From IMG/VR virus record IMGVR_UViG_3300021356_000151, positions 1 through 25,213 of that record: DNA of 25,213 nt; one strand, given 5' to 3'. Shown piece by piece: positions 462 to 18,210 of this stretch (positions are counted from its first letter, which is position 1; each line of letters opens with the position of its first letter). Origin of the DNA: a virus. The translations under genes and the position numbers were made by a program. Below the pieces are notes generated by a model. The model did no database searches. It saw nothing but the letters and a program-made list of their open reading frames with translations, and had not been told where the DNA came from.

Positions 462-875
462 GTGGCTAAACCACTTGGCTTCAAAGACTTTATATCGCCG
501 GATGATACTCAGAAGGCAGACGACGAACTCGCGTATCAGGCGCGGAAACGAAAGCGGTACACCTCTTCTGAGGCACTGAGTCTTCAGGGTCGTCGCGCCC
601 TTGCCCGTGCGATGAAGAGAAACAAAGCGAAGATCAAGATGGGTCGCAAACGTGCGGCACAAAAGACCGCAACTCAGGGTAAGATAGTCAATCGCGCCCA
701 ACGACAAGCAAGAAATATTCTTTTCAAAAAGATCACTAAGGGAATGTCTCGTGGTGATCTCAGTCCTGCGCGTCGTAAAGAGATTGAGAAGAAAGTTGCA
801 ATGATGAAGGGCAAGGTTTCTGCGCTTGCGCGAAGAATTATGCCCGATGTGAGAAAGGCTGATAGGAAGAGATAA
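462..875 (+). CDS. Small, very basic protein with capsid-targeting-like N-terminus
   Basis: I chose the GTG at 462 (137 residues) because AGGAG lies 9 bases upstream at 449-453; an upstream in-frame TTG at 426 lacks a comparable site. The protein is extremely rich in Lys and Arg, with runs such as QARKRKRY, RAMKRNKAKIKMGRKRAAQKT and ARRKEIEKKV, and looks largely helical. The N-terminus MAKPLGFKDFISPDD resembles the capsid-targeting peptide of T4 internal proteins around the aromatic positions, but has Pro where the cleavage Glu would be. From memory the family is common beside the nucleotidyltransferase gene in marine T4-like phages. A DNA-binding or head-internal role is inferred from charge, late promoter and neighbours. 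The next gene overlaps by one base (TAATG). Confidence 0.75.
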   Translation: MAKPLGFKDFISPDDTQKADDELAYQARKRKRYTSSEALSLQGRRALARAMKRNKAKIKMGRKRAAQKTATQGKIVNRAQRQARNILFKKITKGMSRGDLSPARRKEIEKKVAMMKGKVSALARRIMPDVRKADRKR

Positions 876-2293
876 TGACACCAGTAGTACCATCATTTAA
901 ACAATACTTAGTTGAAGAGGAACGCGAAGCGTACTTCACGTTCGGGCGTATGAATCCGCCACACATTGGTCATGGTAAGTTGATGAATGTTATGTCTGCA
1001 AAGGCAGGTAAGACTCCGTATAAGATTTACCTATCACAGTCACAGGATGCTCGCAAGAACCCTCTTTCCTTCGAACAGAAAATTAAGTACGCTCGTAAGA
1101 TGTTCCCCAAACACGCACGGAACGTCATCATGGACAAAAAGATTCGAACCCCAATGGACGTTGCGTCTAAGTTGTACGAACAGGGATACAACAAAATCAA
1201 CATGGTTGTGGGAGAAGATCGTCACGCAGAATTCACAACGTTGTTAAATCGTTACAACGGACAGAAGGGTCGACACGGTTTCTATAACTTCGAGAAGATC
1301 AATGTCATTTCATCGGGATCACGTGATCCAGACGGCGATGCTGAACAGGGTATGTCTGCAACAGTCCAACGTGAAGCCGCAAAGCAAAACGATTTCACAA
1401 AGTTCTCTCAAGGACTTCCAACCAACATGTCAAACAAGGATGCGAAGAAACTGTTTAACGATCTTCGCATTGGTATGGGTCTCAAAGAAGTAAGAGAGTT
1501 CAAGAACAAAGTAAACTTCGAACCCGTATCTGAGACTCGCGAAAAGTATATTGAAGGAGAACTATTTAATGAAGGAGACGAAGTCCGAATCAGATCTGGC
1601 GAAAGAGGGACTATACATCGCCTTGGGACTAATTACGTTATTGTTGATCTTGGTGAAGGTGTTCGCAGATTTTGGTTAGATGATGTGGAACTGGTTGAAG
1701 ATACAATGACTGATATTCGCAACTTTTTTGATCGTCACATGAACAAGAAGAAGTACGAGAAGGCGGTTCGTCTGTTCCTTAACATGCGTAAGAAAAATCC
1801 TGGCCAGTCAAACAAGATGTTGCGTAAGGTGGGTCAGATGACCGGTCTGGACATTCGTGAGATCGATCGAGTTCTCCGTGACATGGTCAAACAGGGTATA
1901 ATGCCAAAACATCTACTCAACTATCCTTCGATACAGAGACCCGTCAGCGAAGAGAATCAACCTGAGTGGGGTACGCCTGCATCAACTAAAAAGGCAAAGA
2001 AAGTCACGCCTGGCGAAGTACAAGAAGACGAAGTCAAGTTCGCGAGAGATCAGATTGCCAAAGAGTTAGAACGCGACAAAGAAAAATTCAAAGACATGGT
2101 CGCTCGGGCGAGACTTGCTCGTGCACGTCGTAAAAATCGAGAAGCAGATATAAAAGATAAACAGGAATCGAAAGGGAATCCTGTTGCAAAGAACCTGAAC
2201 AAGTTCAACAAACCCGCAACGCACAAGGATAAAAAGAAAGATGCGAAGCGTGGATACGTCAAACACAAGGGTCAACTCAATGGCGGAGATTAA
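875..2293 (+). CDS. HIGH-motif nucleotidyltransferase with KOW-like domain and basic tail
   Basis: A 472-residue protein starting at ATG 875 behind AGGAAG (864-869). Residues about 17-205 look like the cytidylyltransferase-like (HIGH) nucleotidyltransferase superfamily: FTFGRMNPPHIGH has the H30-x-G-H33 signature, and ISSGSRD plus GMSATVQR (159-166) stands where the ISSTxxR-type motif closes the active site. This superfamily transfers NMP to a phosphate acceptor (NMN, pantetheine phosphate, glycerol phosphate); the substrate here cannot be told. Residues about 233-275 form a KOW/SH3-like beta segment (GDEVRIRSGERGTIHRLG), followed by a helical segment and a highly charged tail. The N-terminus SFKQYLVEEE aligns with the T4 capsid-targeting peptide, with L-V-E at the cleavage position, and a second L-V-E occurs at 273-275. 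I infer a packaged protein. Confidence 0.8.
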   Translation: MTPVVPSFKQYLVEEEREAYFTFGRMNPPHIGHGKLMNVMSAKAGKTPYKIYLSQSQDARKNPLSFEQKIKYARKMFPKHARNVIMDKKIRTPMDVASKLYEQGYNKINMVVGEDRHAEFTTLLNRYNGQKGRHGFYNFEKINVISSGSRDPDGDAEQGMSATVQREAAKQNDFTKFSQGLPTNMSNKDAKKLFNDLRIGMGLKEVREFKNKVNFEPVSETREKYIEGELFNEGDEVRIRSGERGTIHRLGTNYVIVDLGEGVRRFWLDDVELVEDTMTDIRNFFDRHMNKKKYEKAVRLFLNMRKKNPGQSNKMLRKVGQMTGLDIREIDRVLRDMVKQGIMPKHLLNYPSIQRPVSEENQPEWGTPASTKKAKKVTPGEVQEDEVKFARDQIAKELERDKEKFKDMVARARLARARRKNREADIKDKQESKGNPVAKNLNKFNKPATHKDKKKDAKRGYVKHKGQLNGGD

Positions 2294-4505
2294 GTTAGAA
2301 GATCTACGCAAGTGGTTCGGTAAGGGCAAGAAAGGTGATTGGGTTCGAGTCGGTACTGACGGAGAGATCAAGGGACAATGTGCACGAGAGCCAGGCGAAG
2401 GTAAACCCAAGTGTATGCCTCGTTCGAAAGCACATTCAATGGACAAGAAAGATCGTGCGTCATCTGCACGACGAAAGAGACGCGCAGATCCTATGGCAGA
2501 TCGGCCTGGAACTGGGAACAAACCCATTATGGTTAAGACAGATAAAAAGGAATCAGTAGTGTACGAAGACGTTAACATGAAAAATGTTGATAAACTCAAG
2601 GCCGCTGCGAGAGACTTTGGTAAAAACAGAGACATAAACTCCAAGTCAATCGAAGATGCATTGATGACGATTGTGCAGTCAATGAGGGTTTTGGACAAAA
2701 GCACTTCTGGACGAGCTGATGTCAAACACGAAAAAATTATTGATAAACAAATAGTTCGAATCAATAACATCATCAACAAAACTAATTATGGCAAAACGGG
2801 TCAATCAGAAGAAGGTAAAGAGATAGTAAAAATTCTCAACAAACACAAACTCAATGGGCCAAGAGGGTTCCACAAAGTAATTTACGAAGGGATAGAAATG
2901 AACGAAAGAAACGCCGGTAAGTCTGCGACCGGATATAACATCTATCACGATACTTATTCTGCGGCAATGCAACACGCATATGCTCATGCTAAGAAGAAAC
3001 ATGGTGTAACTGTACGTCCTAGTGAGATTGACGATAAAGTTGCAACGGGCCCAAAGAAACCTTCGACTGGTAAAACCGTATCACATATTCTCAAAACAGA
3101 CAAGAAACAAAACCTTCACGTTCAAGTATACAACACTGGTCGCAAGTACGAGTTGAATATGTACGTTGAGTCGGTCAACGAAGCATCAAAAGTTCCCGCA
3201 GGGATGAAATTCATTGCTTCCTATGTTTACAAGGATGCGAATGGTAAAGACCATACTCACCGTCATCTACGCAAAGGCACCAAGATGACTGACCCTGTTG
3301 TTGTTTACATTGACGATAAAGAATGGAAGACTTTTCAATCATTCACCAAGGCAAAACAAGCAGCCATCAATCACATCAAAGGTATGAAGGAATCAGTAGA
3401 CATGAACGAAGAAACTGCGATAGCGCACCAGACACCTTATGGTACTGTCACGGCATATAAGAGAGACACAAAAGGTATGCGTGGCAAACAAGACGGATTC
3501 AAGTTGACACTCAAGACTAAGAGTGGTAAGACTGTCGATCTAGGTAGTCATCCAAAGCCAACAAAAGCAAATGTCATGTCAATCGTCAAGAATGTGATGC
3601 AGAAAGAGTCAGTCGAACTAGACGAAGATAACAAATTCTTCTTCGTGAGAGTGGGTAAGCCCGGCGACACCATGACCGTCAAATATAAGGCAAAAAACTC
3701 GCGTGAAGCATTGAAGAAAGCGAAGTCTCGGCATTTTGGCAATCCAGTTACACTAGACCCGAATCAAAAACAGGGTCGACCTGTAGGCCCATTGGAGTCA
3801 GTCGATCTCGAAGAGAAGAATGTGCCAACCAACCCTGCACTCTGGGCGAAGTTCAAGGCACAGGCAAAGGCAAAGTTTGATGTTTATCCCTCAGCGTATG
3901 CTAACGGATGGGCTGCAAAGAAATACAAAGCAGCAGGTGGTAGTTGGAAAAAGGAGAGTGTTGAAATGCCAGAACAAAAAACTTTCTGGGACGTTCGTGA
4001 AGGTTCGTGTGAAACCATGAACGCACAGACCAAGAAAGATGAGAAACCACCCTTCAAACCTACTCGTAGGGTTGGTGTGAAGAAAGATCGTTTCGGTAAT
4101 GTCGTCAAGGACAAGAACCGTGCGAAGCATCTCGCGAAGTTGGCGATGCGTGGTGAAGGTGTGAAGAAAGCGGCAGATATGTTTGGTGTGGCGAGTCAAA
4201 TGAAGAAAGGTCGTAACCCTGATGCTAAGGTTGGTGCAAATAGACAAGCAAGACGCGATGCATACAAGCGAGATCTTGCAAGACGCGGTATAAAGAAAGA
4301 GTCAGTCGAACTTGGTGAGAGAAAACTCGATGTAAGGAATCTCGACGATCAGGAATTATTTAAGAAAGCAGTTGCAATTGCTATGGACAAATTTCCCAAA
4401 GATAGGAAGCGTGCAGAACGAGAGATTGCAAAACTCGATCGTGGACAAGAGTTGTTAAGGCATCAAGTAGTGCAAACTGCTCTCAAAAGAGCACCTTATC
4501 AGTAA
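2280..4505 (+). CDS. Modular head-internal polyprotein candidate with repeated ESVxLxE peptides
   Basis: I chose ATG 2280 (741 residues) because AAGGGT lies at 2267-2272; it overlaps the previous gene by 14 bases. Residues 1 to about 77 (KLEDLRKWFGKG, then a Cys- and Lys/Arg-rich part) resemble DUF5872 from memory. The rest is a chain of unrelated small domains separated by a recurring peptide: ESVVYED (E91), IEMNE (205-209), ESVNE (297), ESVDMNE (371-377), ESVELDE (443-449), ESVDLEE (506-512), ESVEMPE (559-565), ESVELGE (674-680). Most end L-x-E or M-x-E, like the L/I-x-E sites cut by the T4 gp21 prohead protease. Between them lie a GYNIYHDTY domain (about 218-295), a KNVPTNPALWAKF domain (513-558) and others of unknown function. 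After the 559-565 site comes KTFWDVREG, matching the start of the next protein. Cleavage in the prohead is inference. Confidence 0.8.
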   Translation: MAEIKLEDLRKWFGKGKKGDWVRVGTDGEIKGQCAREPGEGKPKCMPRSKAHSMDKKDRASSARRKRRADPMADRPGTGNKPIMVKTDKKESVVYEDVNMKNVDKLKAAARDFGKNRDINSKSIEDALMTIVQSMRVLDKSTSGRADVKHEKIIDKQIVRINNIINKTNYGKTGQSEEGKEIVKILNKHKLNGPRGFHKVIYEGIEMNERNAGKSATGYNIYHDTYSAAMQHAYAHAKKKHGVTVRPSEIDDKVATGPKKPSTGKTVSHILKTDKKQNLHVQVYNTGRKYELNMYVESVNEASKVPAGMKFIASYVYKDANGKDHTHRHLRKGTKMTDPVVVYIDDKEWKTFQSFTKAKQAAINHIKGMKESVDMNEETAIAHQTPYGTVTAYKRDTKGMRGKQDGFKLTLKTKSGKTVDLGSHPKPTKANVMSIVKNVMQKESVELDEDNKFFFVRVGKPGDTMTVKYKAKNSREALKKAKSRHFGNPVTLDPNQKQGRPVGPLESVDLEEKNVPTNPALWAKFKAQAKAKFDVYPSAYANGWAAKKYKAAGGSWKKESVEMPEQKTFWDVREGSCETMNAQTKKDEKPPFKPTRRVGVKKDRFGNVVKDKNRAKHLAKLAMRGEGVKKAADMFGVASQMKKGRNPDAKVGANRQARRDAYKRDLARRGIKKESVELGERKLDVRNLDDQELFKKAVAIAMDKFPKDRKRAEREIAKLDRGQELLRHQVVQTALKRAPYQ
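2550..4319 (+). repeat. Dispersed coding repeat: eight ESV/x-(L/M)-x-E linker peptides
   Basis: Copies begin at 2550, 2892, 3168, 3390, 3606, 3795, 3954 and 4299; the 2892 copy lacks ESV and reads IEMNE. Some are also repeated at DNA level: the 19-mer AGAAAGAGTCAGTCGAACT occurs at 3601-3619 and 4294-4312, and GAGTCAGTCGA is shared with 3795. Spacing ranges from about 160 to 345 bases, so domains rather than the linkers set the period. The pattern suggests modules added by recombination at linker sequences. Confidence 0.8.
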
Positions 4506-4861
4506 TGAAGACATTTAAAGACATTCGAGAAGCAGTCTCTCCTGCCCAACAGGCAGCGATTGCAATCTCCAAGAAAGAACGCGGAGAGAAACCTAAGAAC
4601 GAACGTAAACTCACACCTGCTGAGTTAAAGAAGAGAGAAAAGGTTGCCAAGGCAATTGAACGGGACAACCCTGATATGCCCATGGCAAAGAAAATGGCTA
4701 TCGCAACTGCGACAGCAAAGAAAGAGGGTAGTAGTGCACAGTCTCGATTAGATCGTCGTGCGGCGAAACATGGACTAGGTTCTAAGGAACGATTAGACCG
4801 AATTAAAAAGGCACGGGATTTTTTCAGTAAACCACCACCCGGCTCGAAGAAATCTGCATAG
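4505..4861 (+). CDS. Small basic protein with T4 internal-protein-like N-terminus
   Basis: A 118-residue protein whose ATG overlaps the polyprotein stop (TAATG); there is no strong ribosome-binding site, so translation is probably coupled. The N-terminus MKTFKDIREA closely resembles the T4 internal-protein targeting peptide MKTYQEFIAEA, and I-R-E fits the I/L-x-E cleavage rule of T4 gp21. The body is helical and basic, with SPAQQAAIAISKKERGE, DNPDMPMAKKMAIATATAKKE and a Pro/Lys tail. From memory these segments recur in proteins of marine T4-like phages. A capsid-internal, DNA-associated role is inferred. Its first residues are nearly the same as residues 567-575 of the upstream polyprotein. 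Confidence 0.8.
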   Translation: MKTFKDIREAVSPAQQAAIAISKKERGEKPKNERKLTPAELKKREKVAKAIERDNPDMPMAKKMAIATATAKKEGSSAQSRLDRRAAKHGLGSKERLDRIKKARDFFSKPPPGSKKSA

Positions 4862-4875: not shown

Positions 4876-5145
4876 ATGAAAACGTTTAGACAACATTACG
4901 ACGAAGCAACATACCAAGGTAAGAAGGTTACCTTGAACAAACCTATGCCTGGCGATGTTAAAAAGTCAAAGGTCTACGTAGATCCAGACGGTGACGGTAA
5001 GGCGAAAAAAGTTAACTTTGGTGATAAGAATATGACGATCAAGAAGAGTAATCCTGCGCGTCGTAAATCATTCAGGGCACGTCACAACTGTGACAATCCT
5101 GGCCCCAAGGATAAGGCACGCTATTGGTCGTGTAAGGCATGGTAA
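4876..5145 (+). CDS. DUF6321-like small protein with capsid-targeting-like N-terminus
   Basis: 89 residues. The start MKTFRQHYDEA aligns position by position with T4 MKTYQEFIAEA (Y-D-E in place of I-A-E). The rest reads VKKSKVYVDPDGDGKAKKVNFGD, then a basic stretch ending in RRKSFRARHNCD and YWSCKAW. The Cys pair and the RKSFRARH segment resemble, from memory, DUF6321, a domain found in marine phages and some bacteria whose function is unknown. The DPDGDGK segment could be a loose acidic metal-binding loop. No ribosome-binding site is visible upstream; the late promoter at 4863-4870 ends five bases before the ATG. Inferred to be a packaged virion protein. The alternative is a free small DNA-binding protein. 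Confidence 0.75.
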   Translation: MKTFRQHYDEATYQGKKVTLNKPMPGDVKKSKVYVDPDGDGKAKKVNFGDKNMTIKKSNPARRKSFRARHNCDNPGPKDKARYWSCKAW

Positions 5146-5455: not shown

Positions 5456-6262
5456 ATGAACAGTGAACACTTTAAGAGAATGGCAGAACTGTGGGCGGAA
5501 GTACAGGAGAAGAAGACTCTTGATCCCGTAAACCCCAAGGCTGTCAAAAAGAAATTTGATGACCGAAAGGACAAGGACATCGACAATGACGGAGATGTAG
5601 ATTCTTCAGATGAGTATCTGCACAAGCGTCGTAAGGCGATTGCGAAGAACGAAGCCAAGGACGAAATGGACAAGTGTCCAGAATGTGGTGGATCTATGGA
5701 GAACCACGAACCAGACTGTTCTCGTGCGGAAAAGTCTGACAAGAAAAAGTTGGAAGACGACAAAGATCTTGACGCAGGCAATTCTAGGAAGGCACTGAAG
5801 CACGACTGTGCAACACACGTTACATCTGAACAGTGGGGTTACGGTGAGTGCATATCCGGTCAGCACACACTCGTAGAACAGGAAGATGGCACTGGTGTTG
5901 TAACTCACTACGACGTAATGTTCGAACACGGTATCGAGATGGATGTCCCCGTAGAGTCTCTGACAATCATCGCTGAGAAACATCATATGCACGCTCAGAA
6001 GAAGCATAAGGTGAAGGAAGCAAAGCAACCTAATCAATCTGGTGCAAAGGCAGAGAAGATGCTTGACAAGTTCAAGGGTAAGGGTGCACAAGACATGGCG
6101 AAGGACAACAATCTCGAAAATCCTAAGCACGCCGAAATCACACCTGAAGAGGAAGGTCACGACGACGCATCCAAGGCAGGACGTGTAACCAAGCAGTCAA
6201 AGGCTCGCAATGGTGACAACTTGACTGTAGGAGATAAGACACCACCTAAAGGGGGCAAGTAA
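5456..6262 (+). CDS. EF-hand/zinc-motif modular protein, probable virion or scaffold-associated
   Basis: 268 residues, starting at ATG 5456 behind GGAG. Domains in order: a helical N-terminus; a calcium-loop motif D41-x-D43-x-D45-G-D47 followed by DEYLHKRRKAI; a short Cys motif CPECGG with C88 (C74, C77, H84, C88 could bind zinc); a beta-rich domain about 115-180 with QHTLVEQEDGTGVVTHYDV; and a low-complexity charged tail ending TVGDKTPPKGGK. From memory the KDIDNDGDVD and QHTLVEQ segments are shared among several modular structural proteins of marine T4-like phages. The highly charged, lysine-rich composition fits a core or scaffold component, but no catalytic signature is visible. It overlaps the next gene by one base (TAATG). 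Confidence 0.7.
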   Translation: MNSEHFKRMAELWAEVQEKKTLDPVNPKAVKKKFDDRKDKDIDNDGDVDSSDEYLHKRRKAIAKNEAKDEMDKCPECGGSMENHEPDCSRAEKSDKKKLEDDKDLDAGNSRKALKHDCATHVTSEQWGYGECISGQHTLVEQEDGTGVVTHYDVMFEHGIEMDVPVESLTIIAEKHHMHAQKKHKVKEAKQPNQSGAKAEKMLDKFKGKGAQDMAKDNNLENPKHAEITPEEEGHDDASKAGRVTKQSKARNGDNLTVGDKTPPKGGK

Positions 6263-12905: not shown

Positions 12906-14876
12906 ATGCCTGTTAAGATAGACAAATCCCGTGACGCCTTATTACAAGATTATGCCGTCGGGATGCTTAAAGACTTTTACCTAAACGAATATGAATCATC
13001 ACCCCAAGAAGGATACCGAAGAGCCGCAACAGCGTGGTCTGCTGGCGACGATCTTCTCGCACAGAGACTCTATGAGTACGTCTCTAAGAAATGGTTTATG
13101 TTTGCTTCTCCGGTATTGTCGAATGCTCCGAACGGGCATGGTAAAGGCAAAGGAATGCCTATCTCATGTTTCCTTACCTACGTTCCGGACACTCTTGAGG
13201 GCCTCATTGATCATACTTCTGAACTGCGTTGGCTTAGTGTTTATGGCGGCGGTGTTGGTGGACATTGGTCAGACGTTAGAACAGTATCAGATGTCGCGCC
13301 TGGCCCAATACCTTTTCTCCATACCGTAGACGCGGACATGATTGCCTACCGACAGGGTAGGACACGTAAGGGTTCGTATGCGGCATATATGGATGTGTCA
13401 CACCCCGACATCGTCGAGTTCCTGAACATGCGTATTCCTACAGGTGACGTTCAACGTAAGGCATTGAACCTTCACAACGCACTCAATATCACAAACGAAT
13501 TCATGCAGGCGGTGATCGACAACACAGACTTTGATCTACGAGACCCCAAGGATGACACTGTCAAGGAGTCTATCAATGCACGTAAGTTGTGGGAACGAAT
13601 CTTGGAAGTTCGTTTCCGTACCGGTGAACCCTACCTGAACTTCATCGACACTGCGAACGAACATCTACCACAGCCCCTGAAAGATCTGGGGTTGCGTATC
13701 AACGGGTCTAATTTATGTAATGAGATCCACCTACCAACGAGTGCGGATCGTACAGCGGTTTGTTGCCTTTCGTCTCTAAATTTGGAGTATTATGATGAAT
13801 GGAAGGACACTACTATTGTCGGGGATCTTGTTAGGATGCTTGATAATGTATTGCAGTATTTCATTGATAACGCACCTGATACGGTCGCAAGAGCAAAGTA
13901 TAGTGCACTCCGTGAACGATCAATTGGTCTTGGAGCAATGGGTTTCCATTCCCTTCTACAAAAACATGGAGTTGCTTGGGAGTCTGATAAAGCGCGAGAA
14001 ATCAACGATGTTGTGTTCTCTAAAATCAATTCCGACGCAGTTAGAGAAACACAAAGACTGGCCGAAGAACGAGGGGAATATCCAGACGGTGTCGGTTCAG
14101 GTCGAAGGAACTCACATCTTCTTGCGATTGCCCCCAATGCATCCAGTGGCGTTATCTTGTCAACGTCTCCGTCTATTGAACCCGCCAAAGCGGTTGCATA
14201 CACCCACAGAACGAGAGCTGGTAGTTTCCTTGTAAAGAACGTGTACTTCGAAGAACTTCTCAACGAGAAAGGCGAGAACAACGAGTCGGTGTGGACATCA
14301 ATCATCACCAACAAAGGATCGGTGCAACACCTACCATTCTTGACTGAGGGTGAGAAGGCGGTGTTTAAGACTGCACAAGAGTTAGATCAGAATTGGGTAG
14401 TACAACACGCCGCAGATCGACAACCCTACATATGTCAAGGTCAGTCTGTGAATCTATTCTTCCCTGCCGGTGCGGAGAAGTCGTATGTGAACAAGGTACA
14501 CATCAAGGCGTGGAAAGAAGGTCTCAAGGGATTGTACTACCTACGCACAGAGGCAAAGTCTCGTGCAGAAAACGTATCAGAGAAAGTAGAACGGGTTGCA
14601 CTACAGGACGACAACCGGTCTATAGTTTATTCTAAAAAGAATTGTCCCTTCTGTGCAATGGCAATGGAGGAACTTAAACTTCGTGGTATACCTTTTGACA
14701 AGGTTGATCTCGAAGAAATTGGGAAAACTGCTTCAGAGGTCACGGGCAGGAAGGTAAATACAGTACCACAAATTTACATTGAAGGTGAATACGTGGGTGG
14801 ATATGACGATCTTATGAAGAAGTTAGACGCAACAAACGCTAACCAATCGGAGGAATGTCGCGCATGTGAAGGATAA
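12906..14876 (+). CDS. nrdA: Class I ribonucleotide reductase large subunit with built-in glutaredoxin
   Basis: 656 residues. NrdA reduces ribonucleoside diphosphates to deoxy forms for phage DNA synthesis, with NrdB (15964) as radical source. Visible catalytic residues: C88 (PISCFL), the N269-x-C271-x-E273 triad (GSNLCNEI), C286 (CCLSSLN) and the radical-path pair Y544-Y545 (GLYYLRT). The protein begins directly at the ten-stranded core helices, so the N-terminal ATP-cone that senses dATP is missing. Residues about 572-642 are a glutaredoxin domain (YSKKNCPFC with C580/C583, cis-Pro region TVPQIYI, then GGYDD), placed between the core and the mobile C-terminal tail that ends EECRACEG (C651/C654). 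It would therefore re-reduce its own tail. Start ATG 12906 has only a weak ribosome-binding site; the sigma70 promoter lies just upstream. Confidence 0.95.
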   Translation: MPVKIDKSRDALLQDYAVGMLKDFYLNEYESSPQEGYRRAATAWSAGDDLLAQRLYEYVSKKWFMFASPVLSNAPNGHGKGKGMPISCFLTYVPDTLEGLIDHTSELRWLSVYGGGVGGHWSDVRTVSDVAPGPIPFLHTVDADMIAYRQGRTRKGSYAAYMDVSHPDIVEFLNMRIPTGDVQRKALNLHNALNITNEFMQAVIDNTDFDLRDPKDDTVKESINARKLWERILEVRFRTGEPYLNFIDTANEHLPQPLKDLGLRINGSNLCNEIHLPTSADRTAVCCLSSLNLEYYDEWKDTTIVGDLVRMLDNVLQYFIDNAPDTVARAKYSALRERSIGLGAMGFHSLLQKHGVAWESDKAREINDVVFSKINSDAVRETQRLAEERGEYPDGVGSGRRNSHLLAIAPNASSGVILSTSPSIEPAKAVAYTHRTRAGSFLVKNVYFEELLNEKGENNESVWTSIITNKGSVQHLPFLTEGEKAVFKTAQELDQNWVVQHAADRQPYICQGQSVNLFFPAGAEKSYVNKVHIKAWKEGLKGLYYLRTEAKSRAENVSEKVERVALQDDNRSIVYSKKNCPFCAMAMEELKLRGIPFDKVDLEEIGKTASEVTGRKVNTVPQIYIEGEYVGGYDDLMKKLDATNANQSEECRACEG

Positions 14877-14881
14877 AGTGC

Positions 14882-15589
14882 ATGACAACAATAAAAAGTT
14901 TTGGTGGTAAATCTCGCGTTAAAGGCTGGATGATTCTCAAAAGAGAAAAGTCCCAATCTTTTAGAAATTTTGTTAGAGGTAAAACGGAGTACGACAGTAG
15001 ATACAATAAAAAATTAGAGAAGTTCTTTATTCAGAATGAAGTTGATCAAAGGAGAGTTGCAATTGATGTTGGCGCATCATATGGTTTTGTGACTGAGTAC
15101 CTGAGTCAATCTTTTGATGAGGTAAAGTCTTTTGAAATCGTACCACAAATCAGACAATGTTTAGAAATCAATGTGGACTATCGCGAGATGGACAACGTTG
15201 AAGTTTTTCCGTGTGGTTTGGCCGACGAAGAAAAAACTATTGACATTTGGTTCAATCCATTGTATACTGGGCATTCATCTGCATATATGAACGACGACAT
15301 CAATCGAGAAGGTGACACTATCGAATGTGAAGTTCGAGCGTTAGATTCTTTTCAGTTTGAAAACGTAGACTTTCTGAAGATAGATGTCGAAGGTGCAGAA
15401 TTAGATGTATTAAGGGGTGGTATGAATACGATTGAAACACATCGTCCTATCATTACCACAGAACACGCACAAAAAACACCGGAAGCTATACGAAACTCTT
15501 ATGAGGTAATAACTCTAATGGATAGTTTGAACTACAGATATGTTAAAACTATTTGTGGAGACTTCGTATGGGTTCCAGAGGAATTTTAA
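14882..15589 (+). CDS. FkbM-family SAM-dependent methyltransferase
   Basis: 235 residues, ATG 14882 behind AAGGA. Residues 61-68 (IDVGASYG) are the SAM-binding glycine loop; residues 163-180 (DFLKIDVEGAELDVLRGG) are the FkbM signature. FkbM enzymes O-methylate sugars or polyketides, so the likely target is a glycan. The gene sits between nrdA and iscU, where a methyltransferase has no obvious job, and its first part looks more AT-rich than its neighbours. It may be a late insertion or belong functionally to the glycan cluster starting at 21400. The downstream iscU starts right after its stop, so it is co-transcribed. Confidence 0.85.
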   Translation: MTTIKSFGGKSRVKGWMILKREKSQSFRNFVRGKTEYDSRYNKKLEKFFIQNEVDQRRVAIDVGASYGFVTEYLSQSFDEVKSFEIVPQIRQCLEINVDYREMDNVEVFPCGLADEEKTIDIWFNPLYTGHSSAYMNDDINREGDTIECEVRALDSFQFENVDFLKIDVEGAELDVLRGGMNTIETHRPIITTEHAQKTPEAIRNSYEVITLMDSLNYRYVKTICGDFVWVPEEF

Positions 15590-15964
15590 ATGTATTCTGA
15601 TAAAGTATTAGACCACTACGAGAATCCTCGTAACGTGGGCAAGTTTAATCGAGAAGATGAGGATGTAGGTACAGGTATGGTTGGCGCGCCTGCTTGTGGT
15701 GATGTAATGCAGTTACAAATAAAGGTCAACGAAGATCACATCATCGAAGATGCCAAGTTCAAGACCTATGGATGCGGAAGCGCAATCGCATCATCCAGTT
15801 TGCTTACCGAATGGGTAAAAGGTAAGAGTCTCGATGAAGCTGGAACAATTACAAACACGGAGATCGCAAAAGAACTTTCACTCCCACCCGTTAAAATTCA
15901 CTGTTCCGTGTTAGCGGAAGATGCAATCAAAGCAGCCATAAAAGACTACAAGGAAAAACATTAA
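15590..15964 (+). CDS. iscU: IscU-type iron-sulfur cluster scaffold
   Basis: 124 residues, the normal length of bacterial IscU, from ATG 15590 behind GAGGAA. All cluster ligands are present: C36 and D38 (PACGD), C62 (YGCGSA) and C105 (KIHCS). The LPPVK motif (98-102) recognised by the HscA chaperone is intact. IscU receives sulfur from IscS and assembles [2Fe-2S] clusters for transfer to apo-proteins. No cysteine desulfurase, chaperone or ferredoxin gene is in the window, so it must use host partners. It lies between the two ribonucleotide reductase genes, overlapping nrdB by one base (TAATG). The two radical-SAM proteins at 22241 and 24550 need [4Fe-4S] clusters and are possible clients. Confidence 0.92.
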   Translation: MYSDKVLDHYENPRNVGKFNREDEDVGTGMVGAPACGDVMQLQIKVNEDHIIEDAKFKTYGCGSAIASSSLLTEWVKGKSLDEAGTITNTEIAKELSLPPVKIHCSVLAEDAIKAAIKDYKEKH

Positions 15965-16923
15965 TGTCATTACTAGACTTTAGTAAAACGTACAAACCCT
16001 TCCAGTACCCTTGGGCAGTTGAACTGTCAAAGAAACATGAAGAGGTGCACTGGATCGAAGATGAAGCGGAGTTGAGCGAAGATGTCCAAGACTGGAAAAC
16101 CAAACTCACCGAAGACGAAAAAGAATTCATCACGCAAGTATTGCGACTGTTCACACAGTCTGACGTTCAGGTTGGGGAGAACTACCACGAGTTACTCATC
16201 CCTAAATTCAAAAACAATGAAGTGCGAAATATGCTCTCTTCCTTTGCGGGTCGAGAAGCCGTCCACCAAAGAGCCTACGCATTGCTCAACGACACGCTTG
16301 GTCTTCCCGACGAAGAGTACCACAAGTTTCTCGAATATAAAGAGATGGCGGACAAAGTAGATTTCATGAAAGAGGGTGACACTTCTTCTCATACAGGTCT
16401 GGCCCTTGCGCTGGCACAGTCTGTATTCAACGAGGGCATGTCTTTGTTCAGTTCCTTTGTCATGCTACTCAATTTTCAACGGTTCGGTAAGATGAAGGGT
16501 ATGGGTACGATCGTCGAGTGGTCTATCCGTGACGAAACTCTACACGTGCAGGGTAACGCAAAGTTGTTCCGGACATTCTGTGAGGAACACCCTCGCATCG
16601 TAAATGATGAACTCAAGTCGAAGATATATAGTATGGCGCGGAATGCCGTAGACCTTGAAGACAAGTTTATCAATCTTGCATTCAAGGGTAACGATGTTCA
16701 GGGTTTGACAAAAGAGGAAGTGCGTCGATACATTCGACATATTGCAGATCGCCGTCTTTTGCAACTTGGACTCAAAACTAAGTTTAGACAAAAAGACAAT
16801 CCACTCCCATGGCTTGATTGGGTGTTAAACGGTGCATCTCATGATAACTTCTTTGAGAAGCGAGTCACCGAATACTCCGTAGTCGGTATGGAAGGCGAAT
16901 GGGGGTGGGAAGAGGTAGCATGA
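15964..16923 (+). CDS. nrdB: Class I ribonucleotide reductase small subunit
   Basis: 319 residues, TAATG-coupled to iscU with AAGGA upstream. It is the radical-generating partner of NrdA. The carboxylate/histidine metal ligands can be placed: D67 (TQSDVQ), E98 and H101 (GREAVHQRAY), E157 (FNEGMS), E191 and H194 (RDETLH). Tyr105 aligns with the radical tyrosine Y122 of Escherichia coli NrdB, so a di-iron (or Mn/Fe-type) tyrosyl radical enzyme is expected. It is shorter than the 376-residue E. coli protein. The separation of nrdB from nrdA by a methyltransferase gene and iscU is unusual. Confidence 0.95.
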   Translation: MSLLDFSKTYKPFQYPWAVELSKKHEEVHWIEDEAELSEDVQDWKTKLTEDEKEFITQVLRLFTQSDVQVGENYHELLIPKFKNNEVRNMLSSFAGREAVHQRAYALLNDTLGLPDEEYHKFLEYKEMADKVDFMKEGDTSSHTGLALALAQSVFNEGMSLFSSFVMLLNFQRFGKMKGMGTIVEWSIRDETLHVQGNAKLFRTFCEEHPRIVNDELKSKIYSMARNAVDLEDKFINLAFKGNDVQGLTKEEVRRYIRHIADRRLLQLGLKTKFRQKDNPLPWLDWVLNGASHDNFFEKRVTEYSVVGMEGEWGWEEVA

Positions 16924-17502: not shown

Positions 17503-18210
17503 GTGTTACGTTTTCAACAATACTTAGAGGAAGGTGTCAACGATCCTGCGATCTTCAAGGCAGTATTTCTCGCAGGTGGGCCCGGTTCTGGTAAGTCATT
17601 TATTGTAGGTAAGACCGGTCTTACGTCGATGGGATACAAGGTTGTCAACTCTGACGATGCGTTTGAAGCGGCAATGAAAAAGGCGGACATGGAAATGACG
17701 CCTGACAATATCTTCTCTCCAAAGGGTCAAGAACTACGTGGTAAGGCAAAACGTCTCACAGGCACGAAACAGGCGCGTTACATAAAGGGTCGGCTGGGTC
17801 TAGTGGTCGATGGTACCGGTAAAGACCCTGAAAAGATCGCACGACAGGCACAGAAGATCCAGGCATTGGGTTACAAAGCCGCAATGATTTTTGTCAACAC
17901 AGACCTCGATACCGCATTGAAACGCAATCGTATGAGAGCGCGTTCACTCCCCGACGCAGAAGTAGAAGCGTATTGGAAAGCAGTCCAGCGCAATACTGGT
18001 AAATTCCAACGCATGTTTGGTAAAGAAAATTTCCTTGTAGTTGATAATAGTGAAGGTAAGAACTACGAGAAAGAAACACTTCGTGCATATCGTGATGTTC
18101 GAAAGTTCACCGATCAACCTCATAACAAGAAAGCACAGAAGTGGATTGATACAGAGAAGGCCGCTATCCGTCAAGCGGGTAGGTCGCGTGGTGGAAGTGG
18201 TAGTAGATAA
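17503..18210 (+). CDS. P-loop kinase-like protein with capsid-targeting-like N-terminus
   Basis: 235 residues from GTG 17503, with CGAGG about ten bases upstream. The Walker A motif GGPGSGKS is at 25-32, a Walker-B-like LGLVVDGTG at 98-106, and an Arg-rich lid RNRMRARS at 141-148. The pattern fits the zeta-toxin/polynucleotide-kinase-type P-loop phosphotransferases; the substrate is unknown (sugar-nucleotide, nucleic acid end or protein). The N-terminus MLRFQQYLEEG aligns with T4 internal-protein peptides and L-E-E fits the L-x-E cleavage rule. The C-terminus is Lys/Arg/Gly-rich. It has its own late promoter and sits alone between two early-type units, which supports a packaged role more than a nucleotide-pool role. 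Confidence 0.8.
   Translation: MLRFQQYLEEGVNDPAIFKAVFLAGGPGSGKSFIVGKTGLTSMGYKVVNSDDAFEAAMKKADMEMTPDNIFSPKGQELRGKAKRLTGTKQARYIKGRLGLVVDGTGKDPEKIARQAQKIQALGYKAAMIFVNTDLDTALKRNRMRARSLPDAEVEAYWKAVQRNTGKFQRMFGKENFLVVDNSEGKNYEKETLRAYRDVRKFTDQPHNKKAQKWIDTEKAAIRQAGRSRGGSGSR

Follow-up and report, generated by a model that had tools for sequence, protein, structure and literature searches.

A probable head-protease-cut polyprotein of exchangeable small basic proteins in a marine T4-type phage

We analyzed the uncultivated virus record IMGVR_UViG_3300021356_000151, a DNA stretch of 25,213 bases (the window) with the gene content of a T4-type marine phage. In searches, its closest named relatives were Methylophilales phages (Melnitz), with cyanophages (Kyanoviridae) farther off. 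Our subject is a 741-residue open reading frame (ORF) divided into nine small basic segments by short junction peptides, or linkers, that end in hydrophobic-x-Glu. We consider it probable that its product is a virion-packaged polyprotein, cut by a gp21-type protease into separate internal head proteins and subject to cassette exchange at the cut sites. We also lean toward the wider view that marine T4-type phages carry an exchangeable library of injected proteins in the form of polyproteins cut by the prohead protease, with one product giving many packaged effectors. The polyprotein reading had been put forward in an earlier note made from the letters of this DNA, and every part of it that sequence comparison can address came out in its favor: segment swaps, gp21, the capsid site, neighbors with a capsid targeting sequence (CTS) and the virions of relatives.

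Nine segments separated by hydrophobic-x-Glu junctions

The ORF, its segments (D1–D9) and its junctions are listed below with isoelectric points (pI). A slash marks the putative cut, and relatives carrying segments, taken from IMG/VR, are given by L-numbers.

2280..4505, + strand: putative polyprotein ORF, 741 residues, ATG at 2280; relatives L002–L034
2280..2567, + strand: D1 (residues 1–96), DUF6321-like, pI 10.0; phrog_3477, phrog_12753 and phrog_727; N-terminal in L013, L016, L034 and L025
2550..2567, + strand: junction 1, ESVVYE/, residue 96; peptide in translation
2568..2906, + strand: D2 (residues 97–209), pI 9.6; L016 copy 98% identical, with D4 next; after D4 in L015, L014 and L034
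2883..2906, + strand: junction 2, YEGIEMNE/ (GIEMNE), residue 209; in L016 the same junction leads directly to D4
2907..3182, + strand: D3 (residues 210–301), pI 9.7; 16 copies elsewhere, including Melnitz
3168..3182, + strand: junction 3, ESVNE/A, residue 301; peptide in translation
3183..3410, + strand: D4 (residues 302–377), pI 9.6; 12 copies in differing contexts
3390..3410, + strand: junction 4, ESVDMNE/, residue 377; peptide in translation
3411..3626, + strand: D5 (residues 378–449), pI 9.6; directly after MKTFQELREAVG in L051, after D7 in L013, before D4 in L024
3606..3626, + strand: junction 5, ESVELDE/, residue 449; 19-mer copy at 3601–3619
3627..3815, + strand: D6 (residues 450–512), pI 9.8; copies in L016, L051 and L037
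3795..3815, + strand: junction 6, ESVDLEE/, residue 512; peptide in translation
3816..3974, + strand: D7 (residues 513–565), DUF5872-like (below the Pfam cut-off), pI 9.8; Pfam scan and copies in relatives
3954..3974, + strand: junction 7, ESVEMPE/, residue 565; peptide in translation
3975..4319, + strand: D8 (residues 566–680), pI 10.4; starts with an internal KTFWDVRE; standalone gene MKSFKSIREA... in L036
4299..4319, + strand: junction 8, ESVELGE/, residue 680; 19-mer copy at 4294–4312
4320..4502, + strand: D9 (residues 681–741), pI 10.1, without a linker at its end; 97% identical after ESVDLEE in L031 and L008

An alternative upstream ATG at 2241 would extend the protein to 754 residues; the relative L034 begins at the equivalent of 2280. 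The segments are small (5.9–13.0 kDa) and basic (pI 9.6–10.4) and are found apart, reordered and standalone in relatives, in agreement with the proposed division into about nine small domains. Eight peptides of the form ESV(E/D)(L/M)-x-E or variants had likewise been claimed; all eight junctions end in hydrophobic-x-E, and five are exact matches to ESV[ED][LM]xE. This pattern occurred 0 times in 5,000 composition-preserving shuffles of the protein, against five observed, and ESV occurred seven times against a shuffled mean of 0.15. The bare tripeptide [LIM]xE, examined as a candidate signal, was rejected (9 versus 5.0 expected, P = 0.06). Because it is not exceptional by itself, the signal is the whole linker rather than the tripeptide.

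In AlphaFold models, D3 is predicted to be compact, with a helix-helix-three-strand arrangement (predicted local distance difference test (pLDDT) 82), as is D4, with four strands and a helix (pLDDT 86) and a disordered linker tail (pLDDT 48). Joint MAFFT alignments of the mosaic proteins misplaced segments and were left out of structure prediction. Fold searches against the PDB returned nothing significant for the D4 and D3 models (best E 0.37 and 0.64, respectively), nor did a search of the D3 model against viral models (best E 0.14). Pfam recognizes only DUF-type domains, namely DUF5872 here and DUF3008 and DUF5824 in relatives. D1 is also the first segment of an S-B43 protein that bears the annotation ‘structural protein’.

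Segments are exchanged at the junctions

The earlier note had proposed that domains are gained by recombination at linkers and that domain order should be compared across related phages. This comparison bore the idea out, revealing exact segment insertions, deletions and swaps at linkers, the same segments in permuted order and [LIMVFY]xE at most new joints. In the relative L002/L016, D2 and D4 are present (98% and 95% identical), D3 is precisely missing and YEGVEMNE runs directly into ASKVPAGM. Further orders are D4-D3 in L022, D1-D4-D2 in L034, D1-D2-D4-x-D7-D5 in L013 and D5-D4 in L024, and D3-D4 stands amid unrelated company in L027 and L020. The occurrence of segments separately, permuted or as standalone genes indicates several independent products per chain.

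At segment edges in new contexts, [LIMVFY]xE was present in 31 of 39 cases on the left and 25 of 32 on the right, with the motif accepted from −4 to +5 residues of the edge. Across 2,000 random placements in the same proteins, the null means were 6.8 and 5.8 and the maxima 17 and 13, respectively; many matches come from related contigs, so that independence between the counted cases is incomplete. Control motifs xD and xK showed no enrichment in the same test. A breakpoint test over all proteins, made without domain definitions, gave a fainter signal pointing the same way, with a ratio of 1.7 for [LIMV]xE versus ~1.0 for xD and xK; as KxE and PxE were raised as well, we do not use it as main evidence.

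The linker was present in 37 of 40 internal segment copies and absent from 14 C-terminal ones, a contrast that is descriptive only because short remainders leave too little room for the motif and two contigs break off at that point. YIQ, YIT or YVS forms the terminus of nine D3 copies that stand last in their protein; in internal copies the sequence goes on as YVESVNE, YTESVDLDE and the like. Missing where a segment ends the protein, the linker thus belongs to the junction rather than to the segment.

Two mosaic proteins in relatives deserve separate mention. In L076 (11622–13244), several near-tandem ‘EEAEQIDELSKKTLGSYVKKA’ modules are each preceded by an ExxID/LDE linker, the same module having been amplified. 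In L016 (3170–4975), an HNH_3-like stretch, just below the Pfam cut-off, is fused N-terminally to the polyprotein, upstream of D1.

Junctions match the predicted capsid maturation site of the clade

T4 gp21 cleaves after L/I-x-E (PMC9026906). At the eight junctions, P3 is Leu in three, Met in three and Val in two, such that the proposed match to the T4 rule holds strictly for the three L-x-E junctions, while the Met and Val junctions fall outside it. The major capsid protein's maturation site in this clade was read from 37 distinct N-terminal regions and placed by homology to the T4 position. There, P3 is L28, I6, V2 and M1, followed by x-E and then Ala in 28, and all eight junctions satisfy the resulting [LIVM]-x-E rule. 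As the capsid site itself includes them, the M-x-E and V-x-E junctions are credible natural variants. Among 80 sampled linker matches, P3 was L52, I14, V8 and M6 (the search pattern restricts P3 to LIMV), and Ala occupied P1' in 20 of 80 cases, where the background frequency is 9% (P = 2e-5).

The window ends short of the capsid genes, and the protease is known from relatives: all seven related contigs that reach the capsid genes encode a gp21-family protease (PF03420) together with gp23, as does Melnitz. Scaffold gp22 is encoded by a separate gene in relatives.

Linker DNA is partly shared

The repeat AGAAAGAGTCAGTCGAACT, reported earlier as a 19-mer at 3601 and 4294 and as a sign of partial DNA identity among linkers, is exact at both positions. 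Linker pairs within one protein use the same codon at 88 of 149 shared residues versus 60 expected, although the loci compared are related, which weakens the P value; linker serine is encoded by TCN in 41 of 42 cases versus 75% in the same loci. Codon sharing above expectation and the TCN bias together suggest that part of the linker DNA has a common origin, which other copies (GAGAGTGTT) do not share, and such descent of linkers from one another would favor recombination at them. Synonymous differences between copies, in turn, indicate that the linker peptide is kept.

Gene neighborhood, capsid targeting and virion location

The genes next to the ORF, two of them with products that carry targeting-like N-termini, and a peptide inside it are listed below:

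875..2293, + strand: nicotinamide/cytidylyl-transferase (NMNAT), N-terminus FKQYLVE/E
3978..4001, + strand: internal targeting-like peptide KTFWDVRE/G, before D8; the L013 version, MKTFWELRE/A, lies mid-protein
4505..4861, + strand: small basic protein, targeting-like N-terminus MKTFKDIRE/A
4876..5145, + strand: small basic protein, targeting-like N-terminus MKTFRQHYDE/A; phrog_7595

The 3' end of the NMNAT gene overlaps the start of the putative polyprotein by 14 nucleotides. In T4, the first ten residues of the CTS are enough for packaging (PMC9026906), and the N-termini of the two downstream neighbors resemble this sequence. In loci chosen via the NMNAT gene and independently of segment content, linkers (43 versus 4) and CTS-like N-termini (MK[ST]FxxLRE/A; 43 versus 2) cluster at distances of up to 3 kb from that gene. 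Among multi-linker proteins, a CTS heads 9 of 23 and is missing from the other 14. To judge by its sequence, the L013 peptide MKTFWELREA looks like a CTS in mid-chain, as though an entire gene with its CTS had been joined to the chain. A main role of the linkers themselves as targeting sequences was considered and rejected, as the aromatic MK[ST]Fxx stretch typical of CTS-like N-termini is missing from them.

Mass spectrometry data for the Synechococcus phage S-SCSM1 (974 peptides) place NMNAT and ORFs 89, 90, 92 and 93, from the same gene neighborhood, in virions, with the authors' caveat that some detected proteins are possibly carry-over (PMC9602691). Two of these virion-detected ORFs carry linkers, EEVENVDE/R in ORF 89 and EEVELDE/R in ORF 92; the Melnitz protein QZI94974 has EEIEIDE and EKPEMDE. 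A second report lists the cytidylyltransferase (T4-GC190) in S-SM1 virions (PMC3037559), and the NMNAT/cytidylyltransferase family has also been found in S-CBWM1 virions.

The NMNAT-like protein (875–2293) has a modular tail with DUF7230 at its end, and a similar FFDRHMNKKKYEKAVRLFLNMRKKNPG-type stretch lies inside the L022 polyprotein. A DKDIDNDGDVDSSDEYLHKRRKA stretch in the protein at 5456–6262 recurs in several same-cluster proteins of phages L008, L009 and L020. At 17503–18210, a P-loop (zeta-toxin-like) kinase begins with FQQYLEE/GV and, because this N-terminus resembles a CTS, may be packaged too.

Proposed processing and alternative explanations

Under the reading we favor, a chain of about nine small basic proteins destined for the head interior would be made late and enter the prohead core together with its CTS-bearing neighbors. 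During head maturation, a gp21-type prohead protease would cut each [L/I/M/V]-x-E linker on the C-terminal side of its Glu. The freed segments would stay with the DNA, pass into the next host at ejection as T4 IPI, IPII, IPIII and Alt do, and perhaps act there against host defenses or in host take-over. Because the linker would work between any two segments, cassettes could be gained, lost or reordered without loss of processing.

Several observations weigh against this scheme. Cleavage and packaging of the 741-residue protein are themselves what we infer, and presence in virions is known for products of relatives, not for this protein. Its N-terminus lacks a CTS, so that entry into the core would have to depend on either D1 or the internal KTFWDVRE. 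Only three of eight junctions obey the strict T4 L/I-x-E rule, some junctions in relatives are without the motif (for example, MND in L016) and many head proteins of SPN3US are left uncut by the protease.

The linkers might instead be uncleaved flexible joints, the whole chain acting as one head-internal or DNA-binding protein of several domains, with modules recombining at short homologous linker DNA. The indirect case for cleavage and the partly homologous linker DNA, seen in codon sharing and the near-constant TCN serines, fit this explanation. A plain flexible linker, however, needs neither a conserved P1 Glu nor a hydrophobic P3 nor an Ala-rich P1', which together are the preference of the capsid site, and the same segments also exist as separate genes that begin right after a CTS-like peptide ending in xRE/A. 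We thus judge uncleaved joints unlikely. Cleavage into core or scaffold pieces that leave the head, like those of T4 gp22, gp67 and gp68, rather than being delivered to the host, seems less likely again. Although gp21 also cuts T4 core proteins into many peptides (PMC9026906), the segments here are predicted to be folded, are basic, are highly conserved as units and are traded between genomes; neighboring products stay in mature S-SCSM1 virions, and gp22 is already supplied separately in relatives. A further possibility is that the ORF encodes a ‘polyvalent’ conflict protein of several domains that enters the host intact, an embedded peptidase accounting for any release. Phages and plasmids are known to have modular multi-domain proteins for injection, and embedded peptidases have been proposed to release their parts (PMC5512222). 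Pfam scans of the 741-residue protein and eight homologues nevertheless detected no peptidase, polyvalent or known conflict-system domain, and the linkers match the predicted site of the phage's own head protease, which makes this explanation very improbable.

Relation to known systems

Polyproteins are typical of RNA viruses and retroviruses. To our knowledge, the nearest cases in tailed phages are internal proteins cut once and scaffolds that are shredded. In the open literature, we found no polyprotein that a head protease cuts into exchangeable internal proteins; journals behind subscription lay outside this scope, and priority is uncertain.

The gp21-processed T4 proteins IPI, IPII, IPIII and Alt share with the system described here their small size and basic character, CTS-like N-termini in the same cluster, cuts after hydrophobic-x-Glu and fast exchange between related phages (PMC9026906, PMC3012670). 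They differ in having one gene each and a single N-terminal CTS (Alt with an additional C-terminal cut), whereas here one chain holds up to nine units, any two neighbors being separated by a cut site. The 741-residue protein may work like an internal protein precursor, but we do not classify it as one because the N-terminal CTS is missing. T4 core proteins gp22, gp67 and gp68 likewise have several gp21 sites in one chain; they are scaffold whose fragments mostly exit the head, in contrast to sites that divide conserved modules, predicted to be folded. Head proteins of the giant phages phiKZ and SPN3US also combine a gp21-related protease, x-E cuts and multiple sites per protein, but these sites lie inside removed propeptides and not between exchangeable modules (PMC5694885, PMC10052503). 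Polyvalent proteins, with 2–15 shuffled domains per phage protein, have been likened to viral polyproteins by their authors; they contain known enzymatic domains and embedded peptidases, unlike the small basic domains and the site for a trans-acting head protease seen here (PMC5512222). Also related are the cyanophage virion proteins of the NMNAT area (S-SCSM1 ORFs 89–93, PMC9602691; S-SM1, PMC3037559), which share the neighborhood and, in part, EEVELDE and EEVENVDE linkers; they have fewer linkers per protein, and the accessible parts of these reports mention neither processing nor a polyprotein.

If correct, the proposal would describe a polyprotein of a DNA phage that the capsid maturation protease processes in trans. 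A large class of ‘hypothetical’ proteins of very abundant marine phages would be placed inside the head, with a rule for their processing and functional-unit boundaries for annotation, and anything between two [LIVM]-x-E linkers would become a candidate injected effector, perhaps against host defense. The cultured relatives Melnitz and S-SCSM1 make the polyprotein reading directly testable.

Other features of the window

By sequence inspection, the region at 12906–16923 encodes a ribonucleotide reductase large subunit with an apparent C-terminal glutaredoxin fusion, and an IscU/NifU-like scaffold gene sits between the genes for the large and small subunits.

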